Assembly: GCA_028820505.1 (NCBI GenBank)
Contig: JAPPIT010000167.1
Coordinates: 1-43,540, forward strand
Reading direction: 5' to 3'
Length of the DNA stretch: 43,540 bases
DNA from: Defluviicoccus sp.
GTDB lineage: Bacteria > Pseudomonadota > Alphaproteobacteria > MPNO01
The stretch's first letter is position 1, and every line of letters begins with the position of its first letter. Below the pieces are notes generated by a model. The model saw nothing but the letters and a program-made list of their open reading frames with translations, was not told the origin of the DNA and did not search any database. This document shows positions 5,830 through 38,245 of this stretch, piece by piece. The position numbers and the translations under genes are program-made.

Positions 5830-5858
5830 GGACGCCTCGCTGGTTTCGGGTTGGAGCG

Positions 5859-20520: not shown

Positions 20521-22491
20521 ATGACCGAATCCGACTGCGCCGCGCCGCTTCACCGGGAAGAATTGCCGCGCCCGCGCCGCGCCGTTGCCCCGATCGCTCT
20601 GGCGGCGGGCGCCGCGGTTCTCGCCGGACTCCTGGAAGCCGCGCCCGCGCGCGCGGTCGAGTTCGGCAACGGCGGGTACCGGGGGAGCGTCGACACCACG
20701 ATCTCCCAGGGCGTGACCTTCCGCGTCGAGGAGCGCGACAGGGCGCTGGCCGGCAAGACCAACAGCAACGACGGCAATCTCAACTACGACCGTGGCATCG
20801 TCGCCAACACGTCCAAGTTCACCACCGATATCGACTTCCGGACCGACAGGTTCGGCGCGTTCGTCCGGACCACGGGCTTCGTCGACCACGAGAACCGGGA
20901 CGGCAAGCGGGAACGCACCGAGCTGAGCGACGACGCCAAGGAGCGGGTGGGGAGCGACATCGGCGTGCTCGACGCCTACGTCACCGTCCCGTTCGAGGTC
21001 GGCGACGCGGCGGTCGACCTCAGGCTCGGCAAGCACGTGCTGAACTGGGGGGAGAGCACCTTCATCCCCAACGGCGTCAACGCCATCAACCCGTTCGACG
21101 TGAGCAAGCTCAGGCTGCCGGGTTCGGAGTTGCGCGAGGCGCTGCTTCCCGTCTGGATGGCCTCCGCCGAGGTCGCGGCGACCGACACGCTCTCGGTCGC
21201 GGGGTTCTACCAGATCGCTTGGGAAGAGACCCACATCGATCCGGTGGGCAGCTACTTCTCGGTCACCGATTACGTAGGACCGGGGGCGCGGGAGGCGGTG
21301 ATCACGGAGGTCACGCAGAGAGATGACGGCTTCGGGTTCGGCCCCCTTACGAACGCCATCAACGCCGACCTTGCCGCGCTATTTCAACGCGCTCAGCCCG
21401 TGTTCGACCGGGATTTCGCCAGCGCGCTTCGCGGTCGGGATCGCGCGCCCCGCGACTCGGGACAGTGGGGTTTGGCGCTACGCTACCTCGCCGAGGATCT
21501 GAACCAGACCGAGTTCGGCTTCTACTTCATCAACTATCACAGCAGACTGCCGATGATCGGCGGACAGCGGGCCAGCCGGGGCGCGTTGCAAGCGGCTGTC
21601 GCGGCGGCGGGCGCGGTGGGCGCGCCGGGTTCGCAAACCGTCAGTGCCGTGACCGGCGGCGTCACCCGACAGGTCGCGGCCGGATTGATCCCTCAAGCAG
21701 CCGCGCCAGACGTGATTAAGGAGCAGGTCGGGGGAATCGCCGGCGCCTTGGCGGTTGACCGATACCTTAAGGGCGGACACTACTTCTTGGAGTATCCCGA
21801 GGACATCCAGCTCTTCGGACTGAGCTTCAACACCGTGCTCGGAGCTTCGGGCTGGGCGTTGCAGGGCGAATACTCCCTGCGTCCCGACGCGCCGCTGCAG
21901 CGAGCCGAGCGGGCGGTGATCGCGGAAGCTCTCGAACCGTTAACCCGCGCGCTGCGTTGGGAGCCCACCGACCGGGCGGGTCTCGGCGCCTATCTCGCCG
22001 GGTACAGGCCAACGCTGGTCCAAGGCTATGTCGAGCGTAACGTAAGCCAGATCCAGGCCACCGGCACCAAGGTCTTTGGACCCACCGTGGGCGCGGACGC
22101 CCTGGTGTTCGTCGGGGAAGCCGCTCTGATGCATGTCCACGAAATGCCCGACGAGCCGCTGGAGAGTCCCGCCGGCGGCACCCTCTCCGAGAAGGCCGCA
22201 GACGCGGACGCCACCTCGTGGGGCTACCGGCTCGCGGCGCGGCTCGACTACAACAACGCCGTCGGCGGCGCCAATCTCTACCCCTACGCCCAGTTCCTGC
22301 ACGACGTCGGCGGCAACAGCCCGGCGCCCAGCGGGCCGTTCGTGGAGGGCCGGACCGCGATCACGCTCGGCCTCAGGGCCGACTATCTCAGCCGCTGGCA
22401 GGCCGACCTCTCCTACACGCGCATGGGCGGCGAGGGCAACGATCTGGCCGACCGCGACTTCGTCTCCCTCTCCGTCAAATACTCGTTCTGA
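20521..22491 (+). CDS. DUF1302 family outer-membrane protein
   Basis: A 656-residue protein of the DUF1302 family, predicted outer-membrane beta-barrels. After a long basic N-region the hydrophobic stretch APIALAAGAAVLAGLLEAAPARAVEF serves as signal sequence. The mature protein has alternating strands with aromatic girdles (TTDIDFRTDRFGAFVRTTGFVDHEN, RLGKHVLNWGESTFIPNGVNAINPFDV, a family hallmark), and it ends in Phe (VSLSVKYSF), as required for BAM-dependent barrels. ATG 20521 follows a GGGGG-containing site; an earlier in-frame start at 20485 is possible. The DUF1329, Ycf48-like and MMPL genes follow on the same strand, a set that I know as recurrent in proteobacteria and linked to handling of hydrophobic compounds; substrate unknown. 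Confidence 0.9.
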   Translation: MTESDCAAPLHREELPRPRRAVAPIALAAGAAVLAGLLEAAPARAVEFGNGGYRGSVDTTISQGVTFRVEERDRALAGKTNSNDGNLNYDRGIVANTSKFTTDIDFRTDRFGAFVRTTGFVDHENRDGKRERTELSDDAKERVGSDIGVLDAYVTVPFEVGDAAVDLRLGKHVLNWGESTFIPNGVNAINPFDVSKLRLPGSELREALLPVWMASAEVAATDTLSVAGFYQIAWEETHIDPVGSYFSVTDYVGPGAREAVITEVTQRDDGFGFGPLTNAINADLAALFQRAQPVFDRDFASALRGRDRAPRDSGQWGLALRYLAEDLNQTEFGFYFINYHSRLPMIGGQRASRGALQAAVAAAGAVGAPGSQTVSAVTGGVTRQVAAGLIPQAAAPDVIKEQVGGIAGALAVDRYLKGGHYFLEYPEDIQLFGLSFNTVLGASGWALQGEYSLRPDAPLQRAERAVIAEALEPLTRALRWEPTDRAGLGAYLAGYRPTLVQGYVERNVSQIQATGTKVFGPTVGADALVFVGEAALMHVHEMPDEPLESPAGGTLSEKAADADATSWGYRLAARLDYNNAVGGANLYPYAQFLHDVGGNSPAPSGPFVEGRTAITLGLRADYLSRWQADLSYTRMGGEGNDLADRDFVSLSVKYSF

Positions 22492-22502
22492 GGATCGGGG
22501 CC

Positions 22503-23864
22503 ATGACCGCAAGACCGCTTCCGTTCGGCGCCGCCATCCTCCTCGGGGGCGCGCTCGCCTTCCCCGCGTGGGCGGGGATCGGGCCCGGCGACATCGCGCG
22601 GCTCGGCGCCGATCTCACCCCGCTCGGCGGGGAGCGGGCCGGCAACGCCGAGGGCACCATCCCGGAATGGACCGGCGGCATCGTCGCGCCGCCGGCCGGG
22701 TACAAGGTCGGCGAGCATCACCGCGACCCCTATGCCGGCGACAAGCCGCGCTTCGTCATCGACGCCGCCGCGCTGGACAAGCACCGCGGCCGCGTCCCGC
22801 TCGGCCTCCAGCGCATGCTGGAGACCTATCCCGGCTTCCGGATGGCGGTCTACCCGACCCGGCGCAGCGCCTCGGTGCCGCAGCGGATCTACGACGCCAC
22901 CCGCGGGATCGCCGCCACCGCGAAGCTCGTCGACGGCGGCAACGGCGTGGCCGGCGCCGTGATCGGCATCCCGTTCCCGATCCCGAAGAACGGCCAGGAG
23001 GCGGTCTGGAACCACCTGCTGCGCTACCGGGGCGAGACGGTGGCGTGCATCCTCGGCCAGGCCGCGGTCACCCGCGGCGGCGCCTACACGCTGGTCAAGC
23101 AGAGCCTCGAGATCGAGCTGCGCTACTCGCTGCCCGGCATGACGCTGGAGAAGCTCGGCAACAGGATGATCCTGTTCAAGCAGAAGACGCTCGCCCCGGC
23201 CAGGCTCGCCGGGGACATCGTGCTGGTGCACGAGACGATCAACCAGGTCCGCGAGCCGCGCAACGCGTGGACCTACAACCCGGGCCAGCGGCGCGTGCGC
23301 CGCGCGCCCAACATCGCCTACGACAACCCCGGCACCTCGTCGGACGGGCTGCGCACCGCCGACCAGCTCGACATGTTCAACGGCGCGGTCGACCGCTACG
23401 ACTGGAAGCTCGTCGGCAAGCGCGAGATGTACGTGCCCTACAATTCCTACCGGCTGCACGGCGGCGACCTCGCCTTCGCCGACATCCTCAAGCCGCTGCA
23501 CGTCAACCCGGACCTGCTGCGCTACGAGCTGCACCGGGTATGGGTGGTGGAGGCGACGCTGAAAGAGGGCGCGAGCCACATCTACAAGCGGCGCACCTTC
23601 TATATCGACGAGGATTCGTGGCAGATCCTGGTCGCCGACATCTACGACAACCGCGACCAGCTGTGGCGGGTGTCGGAGGCGCACGCGATCAACTACTACG
23701 AAAAGCCCCTGGTGTGGCCGACGCTCGAGGTGCACACCGATCTCCAGGCCGGGCGCTACCTCGCCTTCGGGCTCGACAACGAGTTCCCGATGTGCACCTG
23801 GGACTCGAACCTGCGGTCCCGCGACTTCACCCCCGCTGCCCTGCGCCGCGAGGGGCGGCGCTGA
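22503..23864 (+). CDS. DUF1329 family periplasmic/outer-membrane protein
   Basis: A 453-residue exported protein of the DUF1329 (LolA/LppX-like fold) family. Residues 1-24 are a signal peptide (ending AFPAWAGI). Family segments: LTPLGGERAGNAEGTIPEWTGG at the mature N-terminus, GIPFPIPKNGQEAVWNHLLRYRG, AWTYNPGQRRVRRAPNIAYDNPGTSSDGLRT, and HRVWVVEATLKEGASHIYKRRTFYIDEDSWQILVADIYDNR. It starts 11 bases after the DUF1302 stop. The LolA-like fold is suited to carry lipids across the periplasm, which with the MMPL protein downstream suggests a lipid or hydrophobic-compound route (inference). Confidence 0.92.
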   Translation: MTARPLPFGAAILLGGALAFPAWAGIGPGDIARLGADLTPLGGERAGNAEGTIPEWTGGIVAPPAGYKVGEHHRDPYAGDKPRFVIDAAALDKHRGRVPLGLQRMLETYPGFRMAVYPTRRSASVPQRIYDATRGIAATAKLVDGGNGVAGAVIGIPFPIPKNGQEAVWNHLLRYRGETVACILGQAAVTRGGAYTLVKQSLEIELRYSLPGMTLEKLGNRMILFKQKTLAPARLAGDIVLVHETINQVREPRNAWTYNPGQRRVRRAPNIAYDNPGTSSDGLRTADQLDMFNGAVDRYDWKLVGKREMYVPYNSYRLHGGDLAFADILKPLHVNPDLLRYELHRVWVVEATLKEGASHIYKRRTFYIDEDSWQILVADIYDNRDQLWRVSEAHAINYYEKPLVWPTLEVHTDLQAGRYLAFGLDNEFPMCTWDSNLRSRDFTPAALRREGRR

Positions 23865-23910
23865 CTTTCGGTTCCGGTTCGCTGAAACGCCGGCTGCCGC
23901 CCCCGTCCAC

Positions 23911-24020
23911 CGTCATGGTCGGCGAAGGCCGACCATCCACGAGTTTTTTCTTGCGACGGCGCGCGGTGGAAGAAAAACCGAAAACAAAACGTGGATGGTC
24001 GGCCTTCGCCGACCATGACG
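23911..24020. repeat. Palindromic intercistronic element, copy 1
   Basis: A 110-bp unit with perfect 31-bp arms (23911-23941 and 23990-24020). The arm begins CGTCATGGTCGGCGAAGGCC and is itself a hairpin: ATGGTCGGC and GCCGACCAT pair around GAAG. The core starts GAGTTTT and ends AAAACAAAAC. The copies at 28860 and 40701 have identical arms. It lies between the DUF1329 and Ycf48-like genes of one operon and supplies the only plausible start codons of the latter. Confidence 0.9.
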
Positions 24021-25000
24021 AGGCTGGAAGTTGCAAGAGCGGACCGTCGATAGCGGCGAACCGGATTGCCGCGCGCGCCGCCGGCCTCGCCCTCGCGGTC
24101 CTGCTCGCCCTCCTCGCGCCGGCGGGGGCGGGCGCCGAAGAGGCGGTGAGAGCGCCGCTCGCGATCCGGTCCCTGCTGCTCGACGGGGCCGCTTCCGGGT
24201 CGCGGCTGGTGGTGGTCGGCGAGCGCGGCCACATCCTCGTCTCCACCGACGGCGGCGCGCGCTGGACTCAGGCGAAGGTGCCCGTCCGCGCCCTGCTCAC
24301 CGCGGTCCACATGCACGACGAGCGCACCGGCTGGGCGGTCGGGCACGACGCGGCGATCCTGCGTACGCGCGACGGCGGCGAGACCTGGACGCTCTTGCAC
24401 CGGGCGCCGGAAGAGGAGCGCCCGCTGCTCGACGTCTGGTTCCGCGACGACAGGGCGGGCTTCGCGGTCGGGGCGTACGGCTATTTCCTCGCCACCCGGG
24501 ACGGCGGCGAGACCTGGACCTCGCGGACCGTGGGCGAGGACGATTTTCATCTGAACGCGCTCATCCCCGCGGCCGGGAAGCGCCGGCTCTACATCGCGGC
24601 CGAGGCGGGGGTCGTCTACCGCTCCGACGACGGCGGCGGGACCTGGCGCAAGCTGTCCCCGCCCTACGCCGGCTCCTGGTTCGGGGGGCTCGCGCTGGGC
24701 GAAGACGAGGTGCTGCTCGCCGGCTTGAGAGGGCATCTGTTCCGCTCCGGGGACGCCGGCGAGAGCTGGACGCGGGTGCCCACCGGGATCGCCGCGACGC
24801 TCACCGGCGCCGTCCGGCTGCCCTCCGGCCGGATCGCGATCGTCGGACTCGAAGGCGCCGTGCTGGTCAGCGCGGACGGCGGGCGGAGCGTGACCTCCCG
24901 CGGCCTGCCGTCGCGCGAGGGCGTCTCCGCCGCCCTGCCGCTCCCCGACGGCGGGGTTCTGCTGATCGGAGAGTTCGGCGTCCGCCGCCTCGCCGATTGA
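23915..25000 (+). CDS. Ycf48-like beta-propeller protein (BNR repeats), exported
   Basis: A seven-bladed-propeller-like protein of the Ycf48/HCF136 type with about six repeats of the form VGxxGxILxSxDGGxTW: GERGHILVSTDGGARW, GHDAAILRTRDGGETW, GAYGYFLATRDGGETW, AEAGVVYRSDDGGGTW, LRGHLFRSGDAGESW, LEGAVLVSADGG. A signal peptide (AARAAGLALAVLLALLAPAGAGAEE) precedes them, but it begins about 45 residues from the ATG. No ATG, GTG or TTG occurs between the palindromic element and the signal peptide: candidate starts ATG 23915, TTG 23951 and GTG 23966 all lie inside the element and none has a good ribosome site. From ATG the product is 361 residues. It ends 16 bases before the MMPL gene; such proteins accompany MMPL transporters in this cluster. 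Confidence 0.8.
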   Translation: MVGEGRPSTSFFLRRRAVEEKPKTKRGWSAFADHDEAGSCKSGPSIAANRIAARAAGLALAVLLALLAPAGAGAEEAVRAPLAIRSLLLDGAASGSRLVVVGERGHILVSTDGGARWTQAKVPVRALLTAVHMHDERTGWAVGHDAAILRTRDGGETWTLLHRAPEEERPLLDVWFRDDRAGFAVGAYGYFLATRDGGETWTSRTVGEDDFHLNALIPAAGKRRLYIAAEAGVVYRSDDGGGTWRKLSPPYAGSWFGGLALGEDEVLLAGLRGHLFRSGDAGESWTRVPTGIAATLTGAVRLPSGRIAIVGLEGAVLVSADGGRSVTSRGLPSREGVSAALPLPDGGVLLIGEFGVRRLAD

Positions 25001-25016
25001 CGCCCCGGCGAAACCG

Positions 25017-27320
25017 ATGACCGCCGCCATCGAGAAGCTGCTGTTCGGCCGGCGGCGCCTCGTGCTGGCGGCGTTCGCGGCCCTCACCCTGGCGATGGGG
25101 TGGCAGGCGGCGGGTCTCCGGGTCGATGCCGGCTTCACCAAGCTGGTGCCGGTCGAGCACGAATACATGCGGACGTTCCTCGAATACCGCGACGAGTTCG
25201 GCGGGGCGGATCGCGTGCTGATCGCGGTGATGGCCCGCGAGGGCGACATGTTCACCCCGGACTTCCTCGCCGCGCTGCGCCAGGCGACCGACGCGACCTT
25301 CTTCCTGCCGGGCGTCGACCGGACCCAGGTCTATTCGATCCTCACCCCCAACGTGCGGTTCGTCGAGGTGGTCGAGGACGGGATCGCCGCCGGCAACGTG
25401 CTGCCGGCGGATTTCCGGCCGACCGAAGCCGGCTTCGCCCGGTTGCGCGAGAACGTCGTCAAGGCCGGTCTCGTCGGGCGGCTGGTGGCGAACGACTTCA
25501 CCGGCGCGATCGTCGCCGCCAGGCTGCAGGAGTTTCACCCCGACACCGGCGAACGGCTCGACTATATCGAGGTCGCGCACGAGCTCGAACGCATCCGCCG
25601 CGAGACCATGGAAGGCGCGGACGTCGACGTGCACGTGATCGGCTTCGCCAAGGTGGTGGGAGACGTCGCGGACGGCGCGGCCCGCGTCGTCGCCTTCTTC
25701 GGGATCGCGTTCCTGGTCACCGCGCTCTTCGTCTACGCCTACACGAGCTCGATCCGGCTGACGGCGCCGCCGCTCGCCTGTTCCCTGATCGCCGTGATCT
25801 GGCAGCTCGGCGGGCTCGCCGCGCTCGGGTTCGGCGTCGATCCGATGTCGATCCTGGTGCCGTTCCTGGTGTTCGCCATCGGGGTGAGCCACGGGGTGCA
25901 GATGGTGAGCGCGGTCCGCGCCGAGGCGGCCCGCGGCGCCGCCGGCCTCGACGCCGCGCGGGCGGCCTTTCGCGGCCTGCTGCTGCCGGGGGCGGTGGCG
26001 CTCGCCTCCGACTCCGTGGGGTTCGTCACGATCTCGCTCATCGAGGTGCAGGTCATCAAGGAGATCGCGGTCACGGCGAGCCTCGGGGTGGCCGCCATCA
26101 TCCTGACCAACCTGCTGCTGCTGCCGGTGCTGCTCTCCTGGTTCGACGCGGACGACCAACAGCGCCGCGCCTTCGCGGAGCGCGACCGCCGGTTGCGGCC
26201 GTTATGGTCGCGCATGGCGCGCGTCGCTCGCCGCGGCCCGGCGGCGGTCGCGATCGGCGTGGCGGCGGTGCTGCTCGTCGCCGGCGCGAAATACGCTCCG
26301 GAGGTCCGCGTCGGCGACGAGCATCGGGGCGTGCCGGAGCTGCGGGCGGAGTCGGTCTACAACCGCGACTCCGCCCTGATCGCCGATCGCTTCGATATCG
26401 GCGTGGACGTGCTCACGGTGATCTCGGAGACCGTCAAGGACGGCTGCGTCGACTACGGGACGATGCGGACCCTCGACGATTTCGAATGGCACATGCGCAA
26501 TGTCGACGGCGTCCAGTCGGTGCGCGGGCTGGCGGGCGTCGCCCGGGCCATCAACGCGAGCTGGAACGAGGGCAGCCTCAAGTGGCGGACGCTGCCCCGC
26601 AATCGCCACATGCTGGTCCAGTCGGTCGCCCCGGTGCCGACCGGCAGCGGCCTCCTGAACCTCGACTGCAGCGCGATGCCGGTGTCGGTCTACACCGCCG
26701 ATCACAAGGCCGAGACCGTCGCGCGCGTCGTCGAGGCGGTGAAGGAATTCGACCGCGCGAACCGCAACGAACGCATCGCCTTCCGGCTCGCGTCGGGCAA
26801 TGTCGGGGTGATGGCGGCGACCAACGAGGAGGTCGAGGCGGCGCAGTTCCCGATTCTCGCCTATGTCTACGCTGCGGTGATCGTGCTCTGCCTGGTCTCG
26901 TTCCGCTCCGTGGCGGCGACGGTCTGCATAATCGTGCCGCTCGCCGTGGTCTCCCTGCTCGCCTACGCGCTCATGGCGCTGCTCGAAATCGGCCTCAAGG
27001 TCTCGACCCTGCCCGTGGTGGCGCTCGGCGTCGGCATCGGGGTGGATTACGGCATCTACATCTACGGGCGGCTGCGCACCCACCTGAAGCAGGGGCTCGA
27101 CTTCGCCGAGGCCTACGAGCGGACCCTCGCCGGCACCGGCGCGGGTGTCGTGCTGACCGGCCTCACCCTCGCCGCGGGGGTGGCGACATGGATCGTCGCC
27201 CCGCTCAAGTTCCAGGCGGACATGGGGACGGTGCTGACCTTCATGTTCCTGGTCAACATGGTCGGCGCGGTGCTGCTGCTGCCGGCGCTCGGCGCCTGGC
27301 TGGTGCGGAAGGGGCGCTGA
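25017..27320 (+). CDS. RND/MMPL family transporter
   Basis: A 767-residue inner-membrane protein of the RND superfamily (MMPL / HpnN / sterol-sensing-domain type). One helix near residues 14-31, a large periplasmic domain (about 32-225), a five-helix bundle (about 228-375), a sixth helix near 400-420, a second periplasmic domain (about 425-620) and a second bundle to the end; the internal duplication is clear. The segments FGVDPMSILVPFLVFAIGVSHGVQM and VVALGVGIGVDYGIYIYGRL are the matching helix-4 motifs of each half and contain the Asp expected for proton coupling in the second half. It is the last gene of the DUF1302-DUF1329-Ycf48 operon; these would supply outer-membrane and periplasmic parts. 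Substrate and direction of transport are unknown. Confidence 0.92.
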   Translation: MTAAIEKLLFGRRRLVLAAFAALTLAMGWQAAGLRVDAGFTKLVPVEHEYMRTFLEYRDEFGGADRVLIAVMAREGDMFTPDFLAALRQATDATFFLPGVDRTQVYSILTPNVRFVEVVEDGIAAGNVLPADFRPTEAGFARLRENVVKAGLVGRLVANDFTGAIVAARLQEFHPDTGERLDYIEVAHELERIRRETMEGADVDVHVIGFAKVVGDVADGAARVVAFFGIAFLVTALFVYAYTSSIRLTAPPLACSLIAVIWQLGGLAALGFGVDPMSILVPFLVFAIGVSHGVQMVSAVRAEAARGAAGLDAARAAFRGLLLPGAVALASDSVGFVTISLIEVQVIKEIAVTASLGVAAIILTNLLLLPVLLSWFDADDQQRRAFAERDRRLRPLWSRMARVARRGPAAVAIGVAAVLLVAGAKYAPEVRVGDEHRGVPELRAESVYNRDSALIADRFDIGVDVLTVISETVKDGCVDYGTMRTLDDFEWHMRNVDGVQSVRGLAGVARAINASWNEGSLKWRTLPRNRHMLVQSVAPVPTGSGLLNLDCSAMPVSVYTADHKAETVARVVEAVKEFDRANRNERIAFRLASGNVGVMAATNEEVEAAQFPILAYVYAAVIVLCLVSFRSVAATVCIIVPLAVVSLLAYALMALLEIGLKVSTLPVVALGVGIGVDYGIYIYGRLRTHLKQGLDFAEAYERTLAGTGAGVVLTGLTLAAGVATWIVAPLKFQADMGTVLTFMFLVNMVGAVLLLPALGAWLVRKGR

Positions 27321-27362
27321 GGCACGCCTGAAAATGCAATACGCGCCCTACATTCCGTGAAT

Positions 27363-27770
27363 CTATTGCTGCACTTTCGGCTTCGTCGTTGCGGTATCCC
27401 GCGCCGCTCCACGCTGCGCGGCTTGCACCGCGGCCAGGAAGCCTTTGATGTTGGCGGTGTCCGCGGCCACTTCGCTTAGGCGATTCGAAACCCCGTGCAA
27501 CCGGTTGGTCACCGTAGCCACCTGGTCGGCCAGCGGCCTCACCTCCGCTCGCAGCCTGGCTTCCAAATCGGACAACCGTTCCTTTTGCCGATCCTCTGCG
27601 CCCCTTATCTGCGCCGTTAGCCTGCCCTCCATCGCGGCTACGCCCTGCTCTAGCCGAACCGTATCGTCCCGCGCCCGATCGGCCAGCCATAGGGAGAAAC
27701 CGCCAAGTGGCACGATAAAGGTTGCCCAGACCGCGAGGTAGGCGACCGCGGTGGGCACGTCCGTTTTCAT
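27363..27770 (-). CDS. Small membrane-anchored coiled-coil protein, unknown function
   Basis: A 135-residue protein that I do not recognise. One hydrophobic helix near residues 9-27 (AVAYLAVWATFIVPLGGFSLWLA) is followed by a long charged heptad-rich helix region (about 32-115: VRLEQGVAAMEGRLTAQIRGAEDRQKERLSDLEARL...). The tail is polar (ARDTATTKPKVQQ). The ATG at 27770 has GGAGAG seven bases upstream; the frame is open to 27863 but without such a site. It is antisense to its neighbours and lower in GC than they are. Small TM plus coiled-coil proteins of this shape occur as prophage and plasmid accessory genes, but no other phage gene is near. Confidence 0.6.
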   Translation of the reverse strand: MKTDVPTAVAYLAVWATFIVPLGGFSLWLADRARDDTVRLEQGVAAMEGRLTAQIRGAEDRQKERLSDLEARLRAEVRPLADQVATVTNRLHGVSNRLSEVAADTANIKGFLAAVQAAQRGAARDTATTKPKVQQ

Positions 27771-28064
27771 GCTTACTCTCCAACTTTCGTGCCAATGACC
27801 GCAGACTGTCACGATAGTACAGCCCGTGGTCATTGATACAACCCGTCGTTGTTGTTGGCACATGATTTATCCGATCTGGGTAGCGCGAGTTGTCCGGCCA
27901 GGTGTTTCGGCGATAGTCCGAACGGGCTTCTCTGGCATCACGGGTATGTAGCTCATCGGACGGAATCGCTACCGTCCTTGCTCCCGACCGCCAAACCCTT
28001 GACGGACGCCCCCGTCGACACCCATATCGCCAATGGTCCGACGAGCGGGCGGGGAGGCCGAATC
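27771..28064. other. Non-coding region upstream of soxY
   Basis: No gene is supported here. It holds an inverted repeat CAATGACC / GGTCATTG (near 27794 and 27828) close to the start of the small coiled-coil gene, and GGACGG-N8-CCGTCC at 27958-27977. Both are short; either could be an operator. Promoters for soxY (+) and for the small gene (-) must lie in it, but I see no good consensus hexamers. Confidence 0.4.
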
Positions 28065-28478
28065 ATGGTGCCGACGCGGAGGGACGTGTTACGGCTGGGC
28101 GCCGCCGCCGCGGTGCTGCTTCCGGCCGGCGCGGCCCGCGCCTCCAACCGCGTTCCCGAAGCGATAGCGGCGTTCACCGGGGGCGCCGCGCCCGCGGAGG
28201 GCGGCGTGCGTCTCGACGTGCCGGAGATCGCCGACAACGGAGGCGCCGTGCCGGTTCGGGTCGCCGCCCCGGGCGCCAGGCGGATCGCGCTGTTCGCCGA
28301 CGGCAACCCCCGGCCCCGGGTCGCCGTCTTCCGGTTCGGAGCACTGGTGCCGCCGGACGCGAGGACCCGCATCCGGCTCGCCAAAAGCCAGAACGTGATC
28401 GCGGTGGCGGAGATGGCGGACGGCAGCTTCCGCCGCGCCTCGCGGAAGATCGCCGTGACGGTCGGCGGCTGCGGGTGA
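28065..28478 (+). CDS. soxY: Sulfur carrier protein SoxY
   Basis: A 137-residue periplasmic protein that carries sulfur intermediates on a C-terminal Cys during thiosulfate oxidation. A Tat signal (TRRDVLRLGAAAAVLLPAGAARA) occupies residues 4-27. The Ig-like body shows LDVPEIADNGGAVPVRVAAPGARRIALFADGNPRPRVAVF, and the end is VTVGGCG. The usual terminus is GGCGG; here one Gly is missing so Cys is the second-last residue. ATG 28065 follows GGGGAGG. soxZ starts 9 bases downstream, as expected for the SoxYZ complex. Confidence 0.93.
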   Translation: MVPTRRDVLRLGAAAAVLLPAGAARASNRVPEAIAAFTGGAAPAEGGVRLDVPEIADNGGAVPVRVAAPGARRIALFADGNPRPRVAVFRFGALVPPDARTRIRLAKSQNVIAVAEMADGSFRRASRKIAVTVGGCG

Positions 28479-28487
28479 GCGCGGGCG

Positions 28488-28814
28488 ATGGCGACACCGA
28501 GACCCCGCATCAAGCTGCCGAGGAAGATCGCCGCCGGCGACCCCTTCACGGTGAAGACCCGGATCACCCATCCGATGCATACCGGGCTGCGCCACGACGG
28601 CAAGGGCAGGATCGTGCCGCGCCGGATCGTCAACCGCTTTTCGGTGCGCTTCGAGGGCGAGGAGGCGTTTTCCGTCGACCTGCACCCGGCGGTCTCGGCC
28701 GACCCCTATTTCCAGTTCACCATGGCGGTGCCGGGGCCGGGCCTGCTCGAATTCCGGTGGGAAGACGACGACGGCTCGGTCTACGGCCTCCGCAGGCGGA
28801 TCGCGGTCGAATAG
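28488..28814 (+). CDS. soxZ: Thiosulfate oxidation carrier partner SoxZ
   Basis: A 108-residue Ig-fold protein that pairs with SoxY. Family segments are IKLPRKIAAGDPFTVKTRITHPMHTGLRHDGKGRIVPRRIVNRFSVRFEGEEAFSVDLHPAVSADPYFQFTMAVPGPG and the C-terminal strand LEFRWEDDDGSVY. It has no signal peptide, which is normal since SoxZ is exported with SoxY by the Tat route. The palindromic element copy 2 begins 46 bases after its stop. Confidence 0.95.
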   Translation: MATPRPRIKLPRKIAAGDPFTVKTRITHPMHTGLRHDGKGRIVPRRIVNRFSVRFEGEEAFSVDLHPAVSADPYFQFTMAVPGPGLLEFRWEDDDGSVYGLRRRIAVE

Positions 28815-28817
28815 GGC

Positions 28818-29666
28818 GTGACCGGTTCGGTGGGAACCGTATCCGCCATTTCCCTGCCTCGTCATGGTCGGCGAAGGCCGACCATCCACGTTTTGTTTTT
28901 GTTGTTCCGTCGGCACGAGAAAACTCGTGGATGGTCGGCCTTCGCCGACCATGACGGGCTGAAAAAGGCCGTCTCCACGCTGCTCGCGGCGGCGCTTCTG
29001 GCCTTCCTTCCGGCCGCGGCGTGGAGCGCCGATGCCGGGCGCGGCAAGGCGCTCTACGGGCAGTGCAAGCGGTGCCACCAGGTCGGCGGCGGCGCGAAGC
29101 ACCGGATAGGTCCGCATCTCAACGATTTGTTCGGCCGCGCCGCGGGCTCGCTCGCCGATTACCGCTACTCCAGGGCGATGAAAGGCGCCGGGTCCGGCGG
29201 GCTGGTATGGACCGAAGCGACGCTGGACGCGTTCATCGCCGCGCCGCGCGCCGTGGTGGCGCGCTCGCGCATGAGCTTCGCGGGGCTCGAGAAGGCGGAG
29301 GAGAGGGCGGAACTGCTCGCCTGGCTGCGCGGCTTTTCCGGCGCCCGGTCCGATGTGCCGGCCGCGGAGCCCACCGTGACGCCGGAGGAGTACGGGCTCG
29401 ACCCGAAGCTGCTCGCCATCGAGGGCGATCCCGAATACGGCGCCTATCTGGCGGGCGAATGCACCACCTGTCACAAGCCGGGCGGGGGCGAGGAGGGCAT
29501 CCCGTCGATAACGGGATGGCCGCCCGAGGAGTTCGTGATAGCCTTGCACGCCTACAAGCGCGGCAAGCGGGTGCATCCGGCCATGCAGCTCGTCGCCGGG
29601 CGCCTGTCGGACGAGGAGATCGCCGCCCTGGCCGCGCATTTCCACCGGGCCGAGGACGGCCCGTGA
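28818..29666 (+). CDS. Two-haem c-type cytochrome (SoxE / FccA-like)
   Basis: An exported cytochrome with two haem sites: CKRCH (83-87 counted from the GTG at 28818) in a class I cytochrome c domain with probable Met ligand in RSRMSF (152), and CTTCH (215-219) in a second, FccA-like domain with probable Met in HPAMQLV. A signal peptide LKKAVSTLLAAALLAFLPAAAWSA starts at about residue 48. The region before it is the palindromic element; no ATG is available, only GTG 28818 or TTG codons at 28893, 28899 and 28902. The fccB gene follows after 17 bases, so the product is probably the electron acceptor of the flavoprotein in sulfide oxidation (the SoxE/SoxF or FccA/FccB pair). Confidence 0.85.
   Translation: MTGSVGTVSAISLPRHGRRRPTIHVLFLLFRRHEKTRGWSAFADHDGLKKAVSTLLAAALLAFLPAAAWSADAGRGKALYGQCKRCHQVGGGAKHRIGPHLNDLFGRAAGSLADYRYSRAMKGAGSGGLVWTEATLDAFIAAPRAVVARSRMSFAGLEKAEERAELLAWLRGFSGARSDVPAAEPTVTPEEYGLDPKLLAIEGDPEYGAYLAGECTTCHKPGGGEEGIPSITGWPPEEFVIALHAYKRGKRVHPAMQLVAGRLSDEEIAALAAHFHRAEDGP
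28860..28956. repeat. Palindromic intercistronic element, copy 2 (inverse orientation)
   Basis: A 97-bp unit with the same perfect 31-bp arms (28860-28890 and 28926-28956) as copies 1 and 3. Its core is reversed: on the complementary strand it begins GAGTTTT and ends AAAACAAAAC. It lies between soxZ and the two-haem cytochrome gene, and its right arm is read as RGWSAFADHD directly before the cytochrome signal peptide. Confidence 0.9.
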
Positions 29667-29683
29667 AACGAGGGGGAAGCGTC

Positions 29684-30970
29684 ATGAAACAACGGAATGA
29701 CACGGGCGGGCTGAGCCGGCGCCGGTTCCTCGCGGCGACGGCCGCCACGTCGACGGCGCTCGCGGCGCCCGCGGTGCTCGGCCAGGCGCGCCCGCGCGTC
29801 GTGGTGGTGGGCGGCGGCGCGGGCGGCGCGACGGCCGCGCGCTATATCGCGAAGGATTCGAAGGGCGCCGTGGACGTGACCCTGGTCGATCCCAGCCGCG
29901 CCTATTACAGCTGCTTCTTCTCCAACCTCTATCTCGGCGGCTTCCGCGACTTCGCCTCGATCGGGCACACCTACGGCGCGCTCGCGGCCAATCACGGGAT
30001 CAACGTGGTGCACGACTGGGCGGTCGCCGTCGACCGCGAGAAGCGGACGGTCGGGCTCGCCGGCGGCGGCAGCCTCGGCTACGACCGCCTGGTGCTGTCG
30101 CCCGGGATCGACTTCAGGCCGGGTTCCGTCCCGGGCTGGGATCTCGCGCAGCAGAACCGCATGCCGCACGCCTACAAGGCGGGCTCGCAGACCCAGCTCC
30201 TCAAGGCGCAGGTCGCCGCCATGCGGCAGGGCGGGGTCTATTGCATGGTCGCGCCGCCCAACCCGTTCCGCTGCCCGCCGGGACCCTATGAGCGGATCTC
30301 GATGGTGGCCCATGCGCTCAAGCAATCCAACCCCAAGGCGAAGATCCTGATCGTCGACCCCAAGGCCAAGTTCTCCAAGCAGGGCCTGTTCGAGGACGGG
30401 TGGCAGCGCCACTATCCCGGAATGGTCGAGCGCGTCGGCCCCGACTTCGGCGGCGACAAGGTCGAAGTCCGGCCCGCCTCGATGGAGGTGGTGGTCGACG
30501 GCGAGGCGACCAAGGTCGACGTCTGCAACGTCATCCCGGCGCAGCAGGCGGGGCGCATCGCGGCGATCGCCGGCGTCACCGACAAGTCGGGCTGGGCGCC
30601 GGTGGTGCCGCACACCATGCAGAGCCGGGCGGACGCCAACATCCACGTGCTGGGCGACGCCTCGCTCCAGGGCGACATGCCGAAATCCGGCTTCTCGGCG
30701 AACAGCCAGGCCAAGGTCTGCGCGATGGCGGTGCGCGGCGCGCTGACCGGCTCCAAGGTGTTCCCGGCGCGCTTCTCCAACACCTGCTGGTCGCTGATCG
30801 GCACCGACGACGGGGTGAAGGTCGGCGCCGCCTACAAGGCGACCGACGCGAAGATCGCCAAGACCAGCGGCTTCATTTCCAAGACCGGGGAGGACGCGGA
30901 GCTCCGAAAGGCGACCTACAAGGAGTCGATCGGCTGGTACGCCGCCATTTCCGCCGACATGTTCGGCTGA
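29684..30970 (+). CDS. fccB: Sulfide dehydrogenase (flavocytochrome c) flavoprotein subunit
   Basis: A 428-residue periplasmic FAD protein (FccB/SoxF) that oxidises sulfide and passes electrons to a c-type cytochrome. A Tat signal (SRRRFLAATAATSTALAAPAVLGQA) is at residues 9-36. Next come the FAD-binding VVVVGGGAGGATAARYI and the redox disulfide Cys residues, one in RAYYSCFFSNLYLGG and the other in GGVYCMVAPPNPFRCPPGPYER. The C-terminal flavocytochrome domain is recognised from PARFSNTCWSLIGTDDGVKVGAAY. The start has AGGGGGAAG as ribosome site. It is the last gene of the soxYZ-cytochrome-fccB transcript and faces the YeeE gene. Confidence 0.95.
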   Translation: MKQRNDTGGLSRRRFLAATAATSTALAAPAVLGQARPRVVVVGGGAGGATAARYIAKDSKGAVDVTLVDPSRAYYSCFFSNLYLGGFRDFASIGHTYGALAANHGINVVHDWAVAVDREKRTVGLAGGGSLGYDRLVLSPGIDFRPGSVPGWDLAQQNRMPHAYKAGSQTQLLKAQVAAMRQGGVYCMVAPPNPFRCPPGPYERISMVAHALKQSNPKAKILIVDPKAKFSKQGLFEDGWQRHYPGMVERVGPDFGGDKVEVRPASMEVVVDGEATKVDVCNVIPAQQAGRIAAIAGVTDKSGWAPVVPHTMQSRADANIHVLGDASLQGDMPKSGFSANSQAKVCAMAVRGALTGSKVFPARFSNTCWSLIGTDDGVKVGAAYKATDAKIAKTSGFISKTGEDAELRKATYKESIGWYAAISADMFG

Positions 30971-32124: not shown

Positions 32125-33081
32125 TCAACTTTGGAAACGCAGGATCACTTCACTCTGCTGATCGCTCAATGGTGCTATCTCAGAAAGATTAACGTCGAAT
32201 CGAATGTTGTCGATCGGATCGGATACGTCAATTCGAGGGACTGGAATGTGCCGTGCGAGGTATAGAGCAAGCGCGCCGTCATCGGGGTAAGGTTGGAGCA
32301 TCAATTGGCTGCGATAGAGATCTGGCCCCCCTTTGGTAATACATTGCTGCAAAAAGGAGCCTCGAAGTTCCGGGTCCTCAATCTGAACCGCTATCGTATC
32401 CATCAAGGTGCCCACGGTCTGTCCACTTCGCACCTCGATAAGGCAAAGCGACGCAACAAAAGCTTCAAAGTCTCCCGCAGGTCTCAGTTGCTCAAGCGAG
32501 AATCGATGTTTTGGAGACGCCGAAAGAGTTGCCTTCACATCCATAACAAAGCTGTCAGTGACAAAATCGTACTTGGCGGTCTTTTGCGTGCTCCAGCATC
32601 GTACAGCAGTGGCAATGTCGTCTGATCGGTGTATAATGTATAACTCACCCCAAAGTCCTATCAGATCGCGCGTTGTGTCATTCACTCGACTAAAGAGAGC
32701 AGCAATTTCCTGAATATTATTAGCGATTGCTGTGTTATCGCATGGTATCCACTGATTGGAGAAGCGCTCCTCAAGAATAGTCAGAAAGAGACGCACGATA
32801 TCAGGATCATTCTCCTTCAGCCGAAGAAGCGAGTAACACCCACTTTGAGAATGACCGTCAGGAGTCTCGACAATGCAAATGCGAGAGAACAATGCGTCGA
32901 CAGCGCGCAAGATGATGTCGGGTCGCATGTCGTCTTCCCGGGAGGGCAGCATCAATGCTGGGTGGGCATTGTGATCTATCGATAGCCATACTGAGTGTCC
33001 TTCGGAAAGTGGTATGCCATAAAGGGTACCTGCCTCCTTCGGAACGGTGTGGCTGAGAGATGCGTACAAATCCGTGAGCAT
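32125..33081 (-). CDS. PD-(D/E)XK motif nuclease-like protein (DUF4420 type)
   Basis: A 318-residue protein with a PD-(D/E)XK-like core: a helix with Glu146 (LIGLWGELYII), Asp172 in KYDFVTD, and Asp181-x-Lys183 in SFVMDVKATLS. The conserved TRDLIGLWGELYII block and the later FEAFVASLCLIEV fit the DUF4420 family, which is encoded next to Z1 proteins. It is the likely restriction endonuclease of the system. It starts five bases after the Z1 stop and is the last gene of the operon. Low GC. Cleavage site unknown. Confidence 0.82.
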   Translation of the reverse strand: MLTDLYASLSHTVPKEAGTLYGIPLSEGHSVWLSIDHNAHPALMLPSREDDMRPDIILRAVDALFSRICIVETPDGHSQSGCYSLLRLKENDPDIVRLFLTILEERFSNQWIPCDNTAIANNIQEIAALFSRVNDTTRDLIGLWGELYIIHRSDDIATAVRCWSTQKTAKYDFVTDSFVMDVKATLSASPKHRFSLEQLRPAGDFEAFVASLCLIEVRSGQTVGTLMDTIAVQIEDPELRGSFLQQCITKGGPDLYRSQLMLQPYPDDGALALYLARHIPVPRIDVSDPIDNIRFDVNLSEIAPLSDQQSEVILRFQS

Positions 33082-33086
33082 TGAGC

Positions 33087-35288
33087 CTATCGCTCTATCC
33101 AGACACGCTCGATCAAATGATTAGGGACGTGGGTAGCAAGGATCGGTACGTCATTGATGGTGCGCTTCTTGTCTGCAGTACTGACATGGTATCGATGAAG
33201 TTGAAAGGTAACTGTTTCAGAAGAAACCAGAGCCCGAGCGCCCGGATAGTTTGTACGCGCGTTGGAGCCCTGAAAGAGCGCCCTGATCTTTGGAGGTTGC
33301 CCATCACTCAAGGTTCGCTTGGAATTAACGCCTGACCACGGTCCCGAAAGGGCGTAGAAACTACATGTCATGTCTGCGCTTTCTGCGACCATGCGTTCCA
33401 AACTAAGCATCAAAGCCTGGTGTGCGAGATTATCGTCTGGCCGGCTGTAAACAAACTGACCGATAAAAGGGATAATTTGGCTCAGCAGGATACGGTTGTT
33501 AAACGCCGGTACCCGTTGCTCCTCATTCCAGCCGTGCTCGGCGTAAGGAGAAAAGGGAAATTCATTCAGAATCTTGTCTGCAATTTCTCGATTCTCGGAA
33601 ACAATAAGCGTGTCCTCGAATGGAAAATCTGGTACAACCCATCCACTTTTCCCCTTCGACTGGTACATTTCCAGTAAAATGACAGACGACCGTGTTGGTT
33701 TCAACTGTTGGTCGAGGGGGTATGTTCTACGCCATTCCTTTAGCGTCTTACCACTGTTTAGATGCTCTCGGATCGATAGGCGAATGGCTTCCTCATGTCT
33801 CACATAATCCGTGAAGCCATCTATATTCTCGGAAGAAAGGTAAATTCGACATAGACCCAGATACGGCTTTTTGTAACCAAAGAATCGCGCCCGTTGCTGA
33901 ATATTGTCGGCGTTGCCGACGCCTGTAGAGCGTGGCATATAACTGACTGTCAATCCTTCCACGGTGAAGCCTCGATCCAGACCAATTCCGCCTACCAATA
34001 TCCAGCTATACTCTCCCTGCCAGTCGACAGGTGATATTCTGTTCTTTTCGCGGGTGTTCAATTCGACAACTGCGGTTTCCTCCATCGCTTCAAATAGAAT
34101 TGGCGCAATATTTTCAAAGGTTTGGTTCGTGTCGTACGTTTCCAGCAGATTTTCCGTTGATATTTTAAACTTGTTGAGAAGTTCGAAATGATCAGGATGT
34201 GTATTGTCTTGTAAAATATTCGACCACTGGTCTTTAATTTGCCGTGTCCAACGGGCGAACATCAGGTGTTCGTCTTTTGTGACAGCAGGATGGATCATCA
34301 TTGAGCGATTGTGCCCCGTCTTGAACTCATCCTCCAGCAGTCCTATTGCGACACCTACAAAGAAGTCTCTGAGTGCGTTTCGCAGACTCTCCGGTGGTTC
34401 GGTGGGAGGGTTGTTTTTGTCAGGTACATCAGAACTCGGAATGAGCTCGATGAATTTATCGCGTCCATCTACGAAGAATTCTTGACCGCCAACATAGTGG
34501 TTACCTGGTGTCAAGACACGACCGAAGTCGGGGGACAGGGCGTCGATGCGGCTAATCAGCAGCGGCGCCTGCGGCGTTGCGGTGTAGAGAATGTAGCTGT
34601 GGTGAGGAAACAAGGTGCGCAATTCCTTGATTCGCGTGTGCGTGGTGCTCTCCTCTTGTATTTTAGCTTTAGTGTTAATACCTGCTTGATCACCCTCGTC
34701 ATCAATGATCAGCGTCGGCACATCTGAAAAATCGGAATCTGACAGAAGCCTGGAGAGATTGTTTAGGTGACGATGCTGTTTCATCGACACGATTAGGATG
34801 GTGCGTGCGCGGGCGCTATTTCTACGCCAGCGAGCGAGTTCCGTATTTACACGTTCGGTTTCACTTTTTTGAAAGGAGTTTTGCTGGGTTGTGAATAAAT
34901 TCCATTCACGTGCCCCCGTAATATCGAGGTCGTTCTTCAGACGATCAAACGACTGTTCAACAAGATTGTTGGTCGTTCCCGCAAGCAAGATGACGAGTTG
35001 ATAGCCGTTATCCCGCGCCAGCGCCACTAGGCTCGTGAAAGACAAAGTCTTGCCACTCTGGACATAGCCAATAACCAAACCCGTGTTGGAAGTTCCTTCT
35101 TGATTCGGAGGAGCGCACTCGCTTAAGATTGACGCCGTCTCATGGATCAGCCGTTCTTTCTCGTCGTCGGCCAGAGCCTCGTTGGATCTCAAGAGTGCTG
35201 TGAACGCAGTTCCCTGGATTGGCGACCATTGACCGCCAGAATTTCCAGTCTGTGAAGCTACCTTGATGAGTTTTGGACCACTAGTCAT
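33087..35288 (-). CDS. Z1-domain superfamily II helicase/translocase-like ATPase
   Basis: A 733-residue protein. Walker A is GYVQSGKT (74-81, preceded by NTGLVI), Walker B is LIIDDEGDQ (194-201, DEGD in the place of DEAD), motif III-like YTATPQAPLL begins at 235, and NIQQRARFFGYK is a motif VI analogue with the Arg finger. The Z1 domain (Pfam Z1) covers the central and C-terminal part, with GGIGLDRGFTVEGLTVSYMPRSTGVGN as a hallmark. Z1 proteins were described in restriction-modification contexts with MORC-like GHKL ATPases. ATG 35288 overlaps the end of the GHKL gene by 8 bases. Predicted role: ATP-driven DNA remodelling or translocation before cleavage. Confidence 0.88.
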   Translation of the reverse strand: MTSGPKLIKVASQTGNSGGQWSPIQGTAFTALLRSNEALADDEKERLIHETASILSECAPPNQEGTSNTGLVIGYVQSGKTLSFTSLVALARDNGYQLVILLAGTTNNLVEQSFDRLKNDLDITGAREWNLFTTQQNSFQKSETERVNTELARWRRNSARARTILIVSMKQHRHLNNLSRLLSDSDFSDVPTLIIDDEGDQAGINTKAKIQEESTTHTRIKELRTLFPHHSYILYTATPQAPLLISRIDALSPDFGRVLTPGNHYVGGQEFFVDGRDKFIELIPSSDVPDKNNPPTEPPESLRNALRDFFVGVAIGLLEDEFKTGHNRSMMIHPAVTKDEHLMFARWTRQIKDQWSNILQDNTHPDHFELLNKFKISTENLLETYDTNQTFENIAPILFEAMEETAVVELNTREKNRISPVDWQGEYSWILVGGIGLDRGFTVEGLTVSYMPRSTGVGNADNIQQRARFFGYKKPYLGLCRIYLSSENIDGFTDYVRHEEAIRLSIREHLNSGKTLKEWRRTYPLDQQLKPTRSSVILLEMYQSKGKSGWVVPDFPFEDTLIVSENREIADKILNEFPFSPYAEHGWNEEQRVPAFNNRILLSQIIPFIGQFVYSRPDDNLAHQALMLSLERMVAESADMTCSFYALSGPWSGVNSKRTLSDGQPPKIRALFQGSNARTNYPGARALVSSETVTFQLHRYHVSTADKKRTINDVPILATHVPNHLIERVWIER

Positions 35289-36822
35289 CAATAATCCTCT
35301 TCGAAAGCTGGTTCCTTAGGATTTCGTTGGTAAATCGGCGTATCGCGGAGGGATGGCGATCCGCGAGCTCGCTCGCCGCGACTTCTGACAGTGCCATTGC
35401 GGCGGCCACATTCAGCAGCCCGGTGAATCCTTCAGAGTCTAGCGTCGGGTATTGCGCCATGAAGGGATGCATCATAGAGATACGAATCGTAATCTCGCGT
35501 GGCTCAGGATCGGTGATCAAGGGGCGATTGCAGATATCCAACCAGTTCGAAGGAGTGTCTGCATAAGACAACTCAATTGTAACAATCCAGTTTTCTCCAC
35601 GAAAACGCAATTCAAAGCGCACGTGTTCCAACTTGGTTTCGGGTAAGGTCGGCAAAGGCGCGCCAGTGTCAATCGGTTCTGCGCCTGGCGCGTCCGCAAA
35701 CACGGCCTGTTTGTTAAGCCTTCCTGCAATAGAGGACGCTGCCGCCTTCGCAACCCCTCGCGTATTCTTTGCATCTTTATTGCTACGATACTCGCGGACC
35801 TGTTGAAGAAGCGGAAAGTCTTTGCCGGATATTTGCCTGCGGAGTTGCTTTAAAAATGTGTCTTCGCTTTCCTCCCATTTGATGCCATCCTTAGTGTGAC
35901 TGACTTGAAAGCCGCGAAGGTGGATTTCGCCGAATACACGCAAATAAGCGTAGCTGTTTGAGGCTCCAAAGATATCCTTAGGCCGGTAGGTTTCATCAAA
36001 ACTGCCCATAATTAGGCGATTGCGCCGAAAAAGCGCAAGGCCCGCAAGACGGTTGCTGATGGTCTTGCGGATCGCAACAAATCCAGCCGCTGATTTACCT
36101 TCACCGAGATTGATATCTATATCCTTCTTCCACGTAACTGCGGGTCCTTCTGGATCACGATAGCTTGGTACGACAAGGATTTCCGGCTCGCTGTATGAAA
36201 GTGCATCACCATCAACTGTTATAGTGATAGTTCCGTCGCGGATAAATGCTCTATAGATGCTTGAGAGGTGTTCCTTGATTTTCTTTACTGTATTTCCTTT
36301 TGGAAAACGGCGAATGTTGTCAAGACGAATTTCCGTGTAGTGATTTTCCGTGGCAACAGGTATTGATACAACATGTAATTCTTCAATGCTGTCATTGACA
36401 ATTTGATCGATGTTAAATATTATCGTACGTTCGACATTTTCGCCCAACGCCGTTGTGCGGACACTCCAGTTCGGTGCGAACCAGCAGGCCGCACTCTTCA
36501 TCCCCATTCCGAACTCGGACAAACCCGAGGCATCAGGTGGGATTTCGGCGGGGCGGAAGGCTCGCTGATAGTCATGGTTCGCGATACCTGCTGCGTTGTC
36601 GTTGATCGTTATCGCGTTCTCAAACGCGAGAAAGTCGATATCAATGCGCAGACGGTAATCCGATCCGTCAGCCGTTCTTAGGGCGCGGCGCTGATCCAAG
36701 CTGCTTTGAATTGCGTTATCGACAAATTCCGCAAGAGCGTACCATGCCTTGTAGTTAAGGTGCGGCAGCACCGAGAGTACATTAACTCCCGGCCTGATAT
36801 TTACAGAGTTTAGTTGTTTCAT
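35281..36822 (-). CDS. MORC/MutL-like GHKL ATPase
   Basis: A 513-residue ATPase of the GHKL (gyrase, Hsp90, histidine kinase, MutL) fold. The N-box is ALAEFVDNAIQSS (Glu32, Asp35, Asn36), the G1 box INDNAAGI (73-80), the G2 box EFGMGMKSAA (103-112). A ribosomal-S5-like second domain contains LALFRRNRLIMG, where a Lys or Arg contacts the ATP gamma-phosphate. The last 170 residues have no family I can name. Such bacterial MORC-type proteins are encoded beside Z1 and restriction enzymes. The start overlaps the methyltransferase stop as TAATG, so translation is coupled. Low GC and codon use unlike the flanks. Confidence 0.85.
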   Translation of the reverse strand: MKQLNSVNIRPGVNVLSVLPHLNYKAWYALAEFVDNAIQSSLDQRRALRTADGSDYRLRIDIDFLAFENAITINDNAAGIANHDYQRAFRPAEIPPDASGLSEFGMGMKSAACWFAPNWSVRTTALGENVERTIIFNIDQIVNDSIEELHVVSIPVATENHYTEIRLDNIRRFPKGNTVKKIKEHLSSIYRAFIRDGTITITVDGDALSYSEPEILVVPSYRDPEGPAVTWKKDIDINLGEGKSAAGFVAIRKTISNRLAGLALFRRNRLIMGSFDETYRPKDIFGASNSYAYLRVFGEIHLRGFQVSHTKDGIKWEESEDTFLKQLRRQISGKDFPLLQQVREYRSNKDAKNTRGVAKAAASSIAGRLNKQAVFADAPGAEPIDTGAPLPTLPETKLEHVRFELRFRGENWIVTIELSYADTPSNWLDICNRPLITDPEPREITIRISMMHPFMAQYPTLDSEGFTGLLNVAAAMALSEVAASELADRHPSAIRRFTNEILRNQLSKRIIDD

Positions 36823-38126
36823 TACTCTGCTGCAATAGCTATGCTGAATAGGTCTTCTTTTTTGTTCCGATGGATCAACGCATCAACTATAACACGCGCG
36901 ACGTCGACATTTACTGCATTTCCGAGAGCCTTGTAAGCAACGGTCTTAGTGTCGGGAAGAAATTCGAGATCGCCCATGCTTTGCAGACGGCTACACTCGC
37001 GTGGTGTCATAAAGCGCTTCTCCCAACCGACAATCGGGACCTGGCTAGTTGTCATGGCGATGAGCGAAGGGGCCGTATCTGACTTCTTGACTCGAATTCC
37101 ACTTGCTCGAAACTGGATGAGGTGTTTCCAAATATCACGTTCCCCACCTTTGCAGTTCCATTCAAGTTTTTGAAAACTAGCTGGGAAGTCCTTGATACTG
37201 TCGATCCACGAGTCGATGAACACGCGATGGCGGGCATAGAAGGCGCGATTCTTCTCTATGAAATCGATCTTCCAGTCGGGAAAACAGTCGAGCTTGGTTC
37301 GCGCATAAGGCGGTAATGTGGCTTCGACCTCCCGGGGTGACAGGCCGTTGAGCGATGCTCCGAAGGCGCCTTTGAACCGACCTAACCCTTTGTAGCCTTG
37401 GGCATGTGGTGTGAGGCCATTGAGCGGATAGTCGGCGCCGAACTCCATTGCCCAGATCGGGAATGACGGTAGATGCTCATTCCAAGGATATGCTGCAACG
37501 AACCGCTGCCAAGTATCGATATAATGAAGATGATCTTCGTTAATCGCACGAGCTTCAGAGGGGTGCTCATCAAGAACAGAGCTTATCGAGGTTGCTGGCA
37601 GCGTCGCCGGGATGGGCCAACGGAAATTGTTCAGCCCTCGGCGATCTCCCACGATAAAAGCCCGTTCGCGCTTCTGGGGTATTCCAAACATGTGCGGCGA
37701 AAGCCGCTCGGATTTGATGTCATATCCTAGGTTGTGGAGTTGATCGCAAATGGTTGACCAGGTCTCCCCCATTTGATGGCGAATGAGATTGGGAACGTTC
37801 TCTATGACAAAGAAGCGCGGTTGCCTTAACCGCAAGATCTCGACGACATATTCAAAGAGGTCTCCCCAATGTGGGCACTTCAGCCCTTTCTGATCGCCTG
37901 CCTTAGAGAAGGGCTGACACGGAAAACCCGCACAAAGCACATCGTGTGAGGGGATGCGGGAAAGATCAGCGTCGCGGATGTCGCCTACTGGACGCAGCCC
38001 AAAATTTCGTTCGTAAAGGCTTGAAAGATGCGGGTCGAGTTCGGAGGCAAATACACATTCGAGGCCAAGCGATGCGAGCGCTTGATGGAATCCGCCCAAG
38101 CCTGCAAAGAGATCGATGAACTTCAT
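36822..38126 (-). CDS. DNA (cytosine-5)-methyltransferase
   Basis: A 434-residue type II-like C5-methyltransferase. Motif I KFIDLFAGLGGFHQAL (2-17), motif IV AGFPCQPFSKAG with the nucleophile Cys70, motif VI FVIENV (109-111), motif VIII FGIPQKRERAFIVG and the C-terminal motifs IX-X (PRECSRLQSMG, YKALGNAVNVDVARVI) are in the normal order, with a target-recognition region of about 190 residues between VIII and IX. It would modify the host genome and protect it from the PD-(D/E)XK nuclease. The ATG complementary to 38124-38126 begins directly at motif I; the open frame upstream to 38249 is not needed. Recognition sequence cannot be predicted. Confidence 0.95.
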   Translation of the reverse strand: MKFIDLFAGLGGFHQALASLGLECVFASELDPHLSSLYERNFGLRPVGDIRDADLSRIPSHDVLCAGFPCQPFSKAGDQKGLKCPHWGDLFEYVVEILRLRQPRFFVIENVPNLIRHQMGETWSTICDQLHNLGYDIKSERLSPHMFGIPQKRERAFIVGDRRGLNNFRWPIPATLPATSISSVLDEHPSEARAINEDHLHYIDTWQRFVAAYPWNEHLPSFPIWAMEFGADYPLNGLTPHAQGYKGLGRFKGAFGASLNGLSPREVEATLPPYARTKLDCFPDWKIDFIEKNRAFYARHRVFIDSWIDSIKDFPASFQKLEWNCKGGERDIWKHLIQFRASGIRVKKSDTAPSLIAMTTSQVPIVGWEKRFMTPRECSRLQSMGDLEFLPDTKTVAYKALGNAVNVDVARVIVDALIHRNKKEDLFSIAIAAE

Positions 38127-38245
38127 GTTGACGGTGTCTCGCGATCCAGCGACACTTGTGGACCGGAAGTGCCTGTCGGGTGCGCACTTTTCTTTGATCA
38201 CGTTATAGCGCGCCCATGTTGTGCCAGCATCGTGTACTGTACGGC

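Follow-up and report, generated by a model that had tools for sequence, protein, structure and literature searches.

CGTC-tagged REP dimers in the N-terminal reading frames of two exported-protein genes of Defluviicoccus

REPs tagged with CGTC are already known from alphaproteobacteria. As described by Di Nocera et al. (2013, PMC3733652), they form head-to-head dimers with spacers of 20–100 bp, have no dedicated transposase, and prefer sites behind upstream stop codons, near the 3' ends of upstream genes. The same description reports them within ORFs or at ORF N-termini, with the authors' caution that many N-terminal REPs may precede the true start. It also counts RPE-4 and RPE-6 of the Rickettsia palindromic elements (RPEs) among the CGTC repeats and mentions that RPE-1 copies at protein N-termini are expressed. 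RPEs are palindromes located in frame within coding sequences, in protein interiors. In REPIN/RAYT systems, REPs also occur as inverted pairs, these being tagged with GTAG and accompanied by a RAYT transposase. A search of open-licence literature by title and the beginning of the abstract yielded nothing on REPs splitting overlapping genes or preceding signal peptides.

The studied window is a 43,540-nucleotide stretch, contig C30 of a Defluviicoccus genome further referred to as G000 (5.49-Mb assembly, 228 contigs). It was compared with four other genomes of the genus (G001–G004); all five genomes are in many contigs. Two REP dimers of the window are located in gene leaders: copy 1 (23911–24020, 31-bp arms, 48-nt spacer) precedes a YCF48/PSII_BNR-like gene, and copy 2 (28860–28956, 31-bp arms with 100% complementarity, 35-nt spacer) precedes a diheme cytochrome c gene. 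The preliminary description had given the same coordinates and arms. A third dimer (40701–40798) is flanked by two minus-strand hydantoinase genes, the downstream one of which keeps a normal ATG. Elsewhere in the window, the region 32125–38249 is a low-GC island (about 0.5 vs 0.7). Its four minus-strand genes encode a cytosine methylase, an HATPase, a Z1 protein and a DUF4420 PD-(D/E)XK protein, and likely form a restriction-type defence cluster.

Each REP arm consists of CGTC, a 9-bp stem with AT first, a loop of 4 nt and a CCA tail; the arm pattern is CGTC-ATGGTCGGC-NNNN-GCCGACCAT-CCACG. The arms of a dimer mirror one another, loop included, in most copies. The CGTC end, the AT-first stem, the loop length, the CCA tail, the head-to-head dimeric arrangement with spacers of 20–100 bp, the lack of a dedicated transposase, the location near 3' ends of upstream genes and the alphaproteobacterial host are all common to these elements and to the CGTC REPs as described by Di Nocera et al. 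(PMC3733652). From the families outlined there we see no essential difference, the 9-bp stem with a 4-nt loop being intermediate between families 1 and 3.

Arm searches of the genomes gave 101 and 104 matches in G000 (about 100 dimers), 19 each in G001 and G004, and none in G002, G003 and G005. The frame CGTCATGG...CCATCCACG is present in 37 of the 385 genomes of the class; among the matches listed, the stems differ yet are mostly self-complementary by eye, as expected of a stem kept by paired changes. A REPIN/RAYT identity was rejected, as the RAYT-type transposase (Y1_Tnp, PF01797) was found in none of the six genomes by a profile that was positive in 5 of 14 control genomes. Copy 1 had no match in phage and plasmid collections at distant settings. 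At copy 2, Rfam yielded only two microRNA matches far under the gathering score, which we attribute to the long hairpin. Inspection by eye shows T runs behind each arm, while the consensus scan for promoters and intrinsic terminators gave no match.

From the roughly 100 dimers of G000 we examined 46 distinct complete ones, after dropping seven lone arms and one duplicate dimer (L078). Among them, 29 lie between codirectional, 12 between convergent and 5 between divergent genes. Coding regions were called by a codon-usage model trained on the examined stretches. None of the 46 dimers was inside a called coding region; all were located between such regions or at their 5' edge. The likeness to RPEs is that the reading frame through the dimer is open and kept in the two window leaders, and the difference is that here the palindromes occupy at most leaders before signal peptides.

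The right arms of both copies read RGWSAFADHD in the same phase and lead into a signal peptide, so that each dimer lies in the N-terminal reading frame of its gene, with no ATG, GTG or TTG between the dimer and the signal peptide. These observations of the preliminary description hold. The shared phase is weak evidence, because 89 of 92 strand-readings of the dimers are open in phase 0 (six contigs, C160, C181, C183, C199, C213 and C215, were picked for protein-level similarity to the leaders of the window, a choice that biases the set toward this phase). Phase 1 is open in 69 of 92 readings and phase 2 in none, since the right arm carries TGA. As 7 of the 37 other dimer-facing gene ends are likewise open through the dimer, the openness of both window genes could be due to chance (about 4%). 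The missing later start exceeds chance: ATG, GTG or TTG follows the dimer in 36 of 39 dimer-facing gene 5' ends, the exceptions being the two window genes and one gene of locus L079. A canonical start was present within −90 to +60 in all 105 strong genes, a count that passes both window genes by way of codons inside the dimers and excludes genes running off a stretch.

Copy 2 lies in the gene order soxZ, dimer, diheme cytochrome c, flavocytochrome c flavoprotein, all within a soxYZ–diheme cytochrome–FCSD flavoprotein region (28065–30970). The soxZ gene (28488–28814, plus strand, PF08770) is followed by the cytochrome with its signal peptide KKAVSTLLAAALLAFLPAAAWSA (28962–29666, plus strand, PF00034 and PF13442). 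The preliminary description had placed its original start, as a probable one, just before the AAAAAG codons at 28962. The orthologues point elsewhere. An in-frame ATG inside soxZ, in its last codons, is present in all ten loci (L054–L063) outside the group formed by the window, G001 and G004; because of this, the native cytochrome start was probably inside soxZ. This ATG usually arises from the codons GAC GAT GAC, whereas the window, G001 and G004 read GAC GAC GAC; the corresponding window sequence, GACGACGACGGC, contains no ATG. L054 (G003) and L056 offer no other canonical cytochrome start. The soxZ and cytochrome frames were compared in 12 loci, L052 (G004) being excluded given that its contig begins inside the dimer. 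The cytochrome is in frame +1 relative to soxZ in nine of the ten outgroup loci despite varying distance from the soxZ stop. In the window, L053 and G004 (where the gene is split over two contigs) it is in frame +0 with a GTG at +6.

Neither the cytochrome site of G003 nor any YCF48 leader of G001–G004 contains the dimer, which supports its being an insertion. In the window, G001 and G004 the cytochrome dimer is located behind the soxZ stop, the leader is open through it, and the only common canonical start is the GTG upstream of it (28818–28820, plus strand), 6 nt past the T of the soxZ stop. The GTG 28830, also in frame, was missing from the preliminary list of starts. A CTG immediately after the dimer (28959–28961, plus strand) is also shared by G001 and G004. 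The distance between GTG and CTG equals 141, 135 and 135 nt in the window, G001 and G004, respectively, a net difference of 6 nt. The candidate translated leader contains the peptide TGSVGTVSAISLPR upstream of GWSAFADHD. Between G001 and G004, 2 silent and 7 replacement differences fall in its 39 codons, compared with 26 silent and 12 replacement differences in the 190 codons of the mature protein (Fisher p 0.02). With dN/dS of about 0.13–0.17, the mature cytochrome is conserved under purifying selection, whereas the leader drifts without constraint.

Compared with the corresponding site in G004, the copy-2 spacer (28891–28925) lies in inverted orientation, matching at 33 of 35 positions as the reverse complement and at 11 of 35 in the forward direction. 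The alignment suggests a likely in-place inversion between the arms; conversion may be responsible instead, as another G000 spacer matches at 30 of 35 positions. At a second common dimer site (L067/L164), the spacer orientation is kept. Close relatives of the cytochrome (73–79%) come from metagenome assemblies assigned to several classes, Gammaproteobacteria among them, a spread suggestive of either transfer or errors in binning; three of the closest records are Defluviicoccus metagenome assemblies.

At the copy-1 locus, a DUF1329 gene (PF07044 at 22476–23861) with the stop TGA at 23862–23864 (plus strand) is followed by the dimer, the YCF48-like gene and an MMPL gene. The YCF48-like body spans 24021–25000 (plus strand, PF14870), with the signal peptide at about 24075–24136 and the coding signal from 24053. 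In the window, the sole canonical starts before the signal peptide are those supplied by the dimer. In G001, G003 and G004, which do not have this dimer, no ATG, GTG or TTG is found from the DUF1329 stop to the signal peptide, and G002 offers only TTGs at or inside the hydrophobic stretch. Three sister-group genomes (G310, G101 and G387) share a far-upstream GTG, and their long pre-signal regions contain no REP. In 23 distant orthologues, an ATG precedes the hydrophobic stretch (by eye, among 26 of 30 loci listed). Because dimer-less relatives are startless or long-leadered too, the sequences indicate that the long or startless leader predates the dimer or is independent of it. Of the earlier proposal that insertions removed the native starts, what is supported is that the cytochrome has lost a start apparently used by its relatives; removal of the YCF48 start by insertion is not supported. 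Element-free orthologues with the same long N-terminus, named in advance as evidence against the proposal, exist in part, namely at the sister-group YCF48 loci.

An in-frame CTG upstream of the signal peptide is present at this locus in all five genus members. In the window it occupies 23882–23884 (plus strand), a candidate not listed in the preliminary description; the homologous codon is found in G001 and G004, and G003 and G002 share a CTG at another site. MAFFT did not align the CTGs of the two groups together. The APLAI anchor lies 90, 61 and 54 codons downstream of CTG in the window, G001 and G004 and 42 codons downstream in both G003 and G002, always in frame. From the DUF1329 stop, CTG is 20, 19, 19, 33 and 49 nt away (window, G001, G004, G003, G002), with differences of 1 or 16 nt that do not keep the frame. 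Preservation of the frame only downstream of CTG is therefore as expected of a CTG start, the independent events being few. The identity of the sister-group GTG (G310, G101) with the CTG position was considered and rejected, as the nearer site reads TTA in G387 and lies in a different frame; it is the farther GTG that all three genomes share. In G001 and G004, this leader holds a second palindrome, CCCTCCCGCNNGCGGGAGGG, which is likewise in frame. This family has 176, 53 and 13 matches per strand in G001, G004 and G000, respectively.

A third case is L079, where a dimer lies between a gene that we take to be amidohydrolase-like and a molybdopterin-binding (CoxL-like) gene (5539–5963; PF02738, PF20256, PF01315). 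The latter has no ATG, GTG or TTG before codon 59, its start region being lost. In its orthologues in G001, G004 and G002, a CTG overlaps the upstream stop (CTGA), and an in-frame GTG occurs about 15 codons upstream; in G000 the CTG is replaced by TTA and the dimer lies behind the stop. The start of these orthologues may be either this CTG or the common GTG. The locus fits the idea that tightly packed gene pairs are split by REPs inserted behind stop codons.

The best explanation of both window genes, to which we give an even chance, is that translation starts upstream and the ribosome reads through the dimer. The dimers would have been inserted behind the stop codon of the upstream operon gene, and the putative starts would be GTG 28818 for the cytochrome and CTG 23882 for the YCF48-like gene. 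The ribosome would presumably re-initiate once it has terminated on the upstream gene and translate the whole palindrome, which is almost always open in the phase used, as an in-frame leader that leaves with the signal peptide. Such removal would explain why the leader drifts freely. The predicted cost of opening the RNA is 20.3 kcal/mol at GTG 28818 and 20.0 at CTG 23882 (centred at 23884), similar to that at ATG 25017 (20.6). No Shine-Dalgarno sequence was seen by eye before either codon. CTG is rare as a start codon and common in GC-rich DNA, both of which are counterpoints to reading the conserved CTGs as starts. In Caulobacter dnaA, an upstream CUG is described as bound by the 30S subunit in vitro and unused in vivo (PMC8443254).

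Were translation to begin at a non-canonical codon immediately past the dimer (CTG 28959 for the cytochrome, ATA or ATT for YCF48), both proteins would have short normal signal peptides and the dimer would be untranslated leader RNA. This agrees with the caution of Di Nocera et al. on N-terminal REPs (PMC3733652), and in the window, G001 and G004 the CTG is followed by two basic codons. However, 3 nt separate this CTG from the 31-bp stem and its opening cost is 37.3 kcal/mol, the YCF48 codons are not common to the relatives, and the frame is preserved across the 6-nt indel upstream; we rank this reading second and consider it rather unlikely. Ranked third and somewhat more doubtful is a start inside the repeat, as originally proposed. 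The codons named for it (ATG 23915, TTG 23951 and GTG 23966; TTG 28893, 28899 and 28902, besides GTG 28818 upstream) are all present and in frame, those inside the repeats are canonical, the YCF48-like gene offers no other canonical codon before its signal peptide, and the spacer codon GTG 23966 has the lowest opening cost (11.4 kcal/mol). Against this, the TTGs of the copy-2 spacer are absent from G001 and G004, where the spacer is inverted, ATG 23915 is fully paired within the stem (47.1 kcal/mol), and YCF48 does without canonical starts in G001, G003 and G004.

The lowest-ranked explanation, which we regard as improbable, is gene decay after insertions that abolished or reduced translation. 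The startless gene beside the L079 dimer would fit it, but the mature cytochrome is open in three genomes under purifying selection, and in five genomes the region of the YCF48 signal peptide has stayed in frame and hydrophobic.

Starting from initiation upstream and reading through the dimer, we put forward a tentative generalization, which we hold with distinctly less confidence: cleavable pre-signal leaders may serve as a landing zone for palindromic repeats. REPs inserted behind stops would split overlapping gene pairs, the downstream gene would start upstream of the repeat, even at CTG, and translate the palindrome, and signal peptidase would erase the result; the YCF48 leader would then have served two unrelated repeat families in this way. 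If this is true, gene finders put such starts in the wrong place, and REP insertion at overlapping gene pairs carries a defined cost. Conserved CTG starts in a bacterial operon would then be testable, and there would be a simple reason why repeats in exported-protein genes spare the mature protein.
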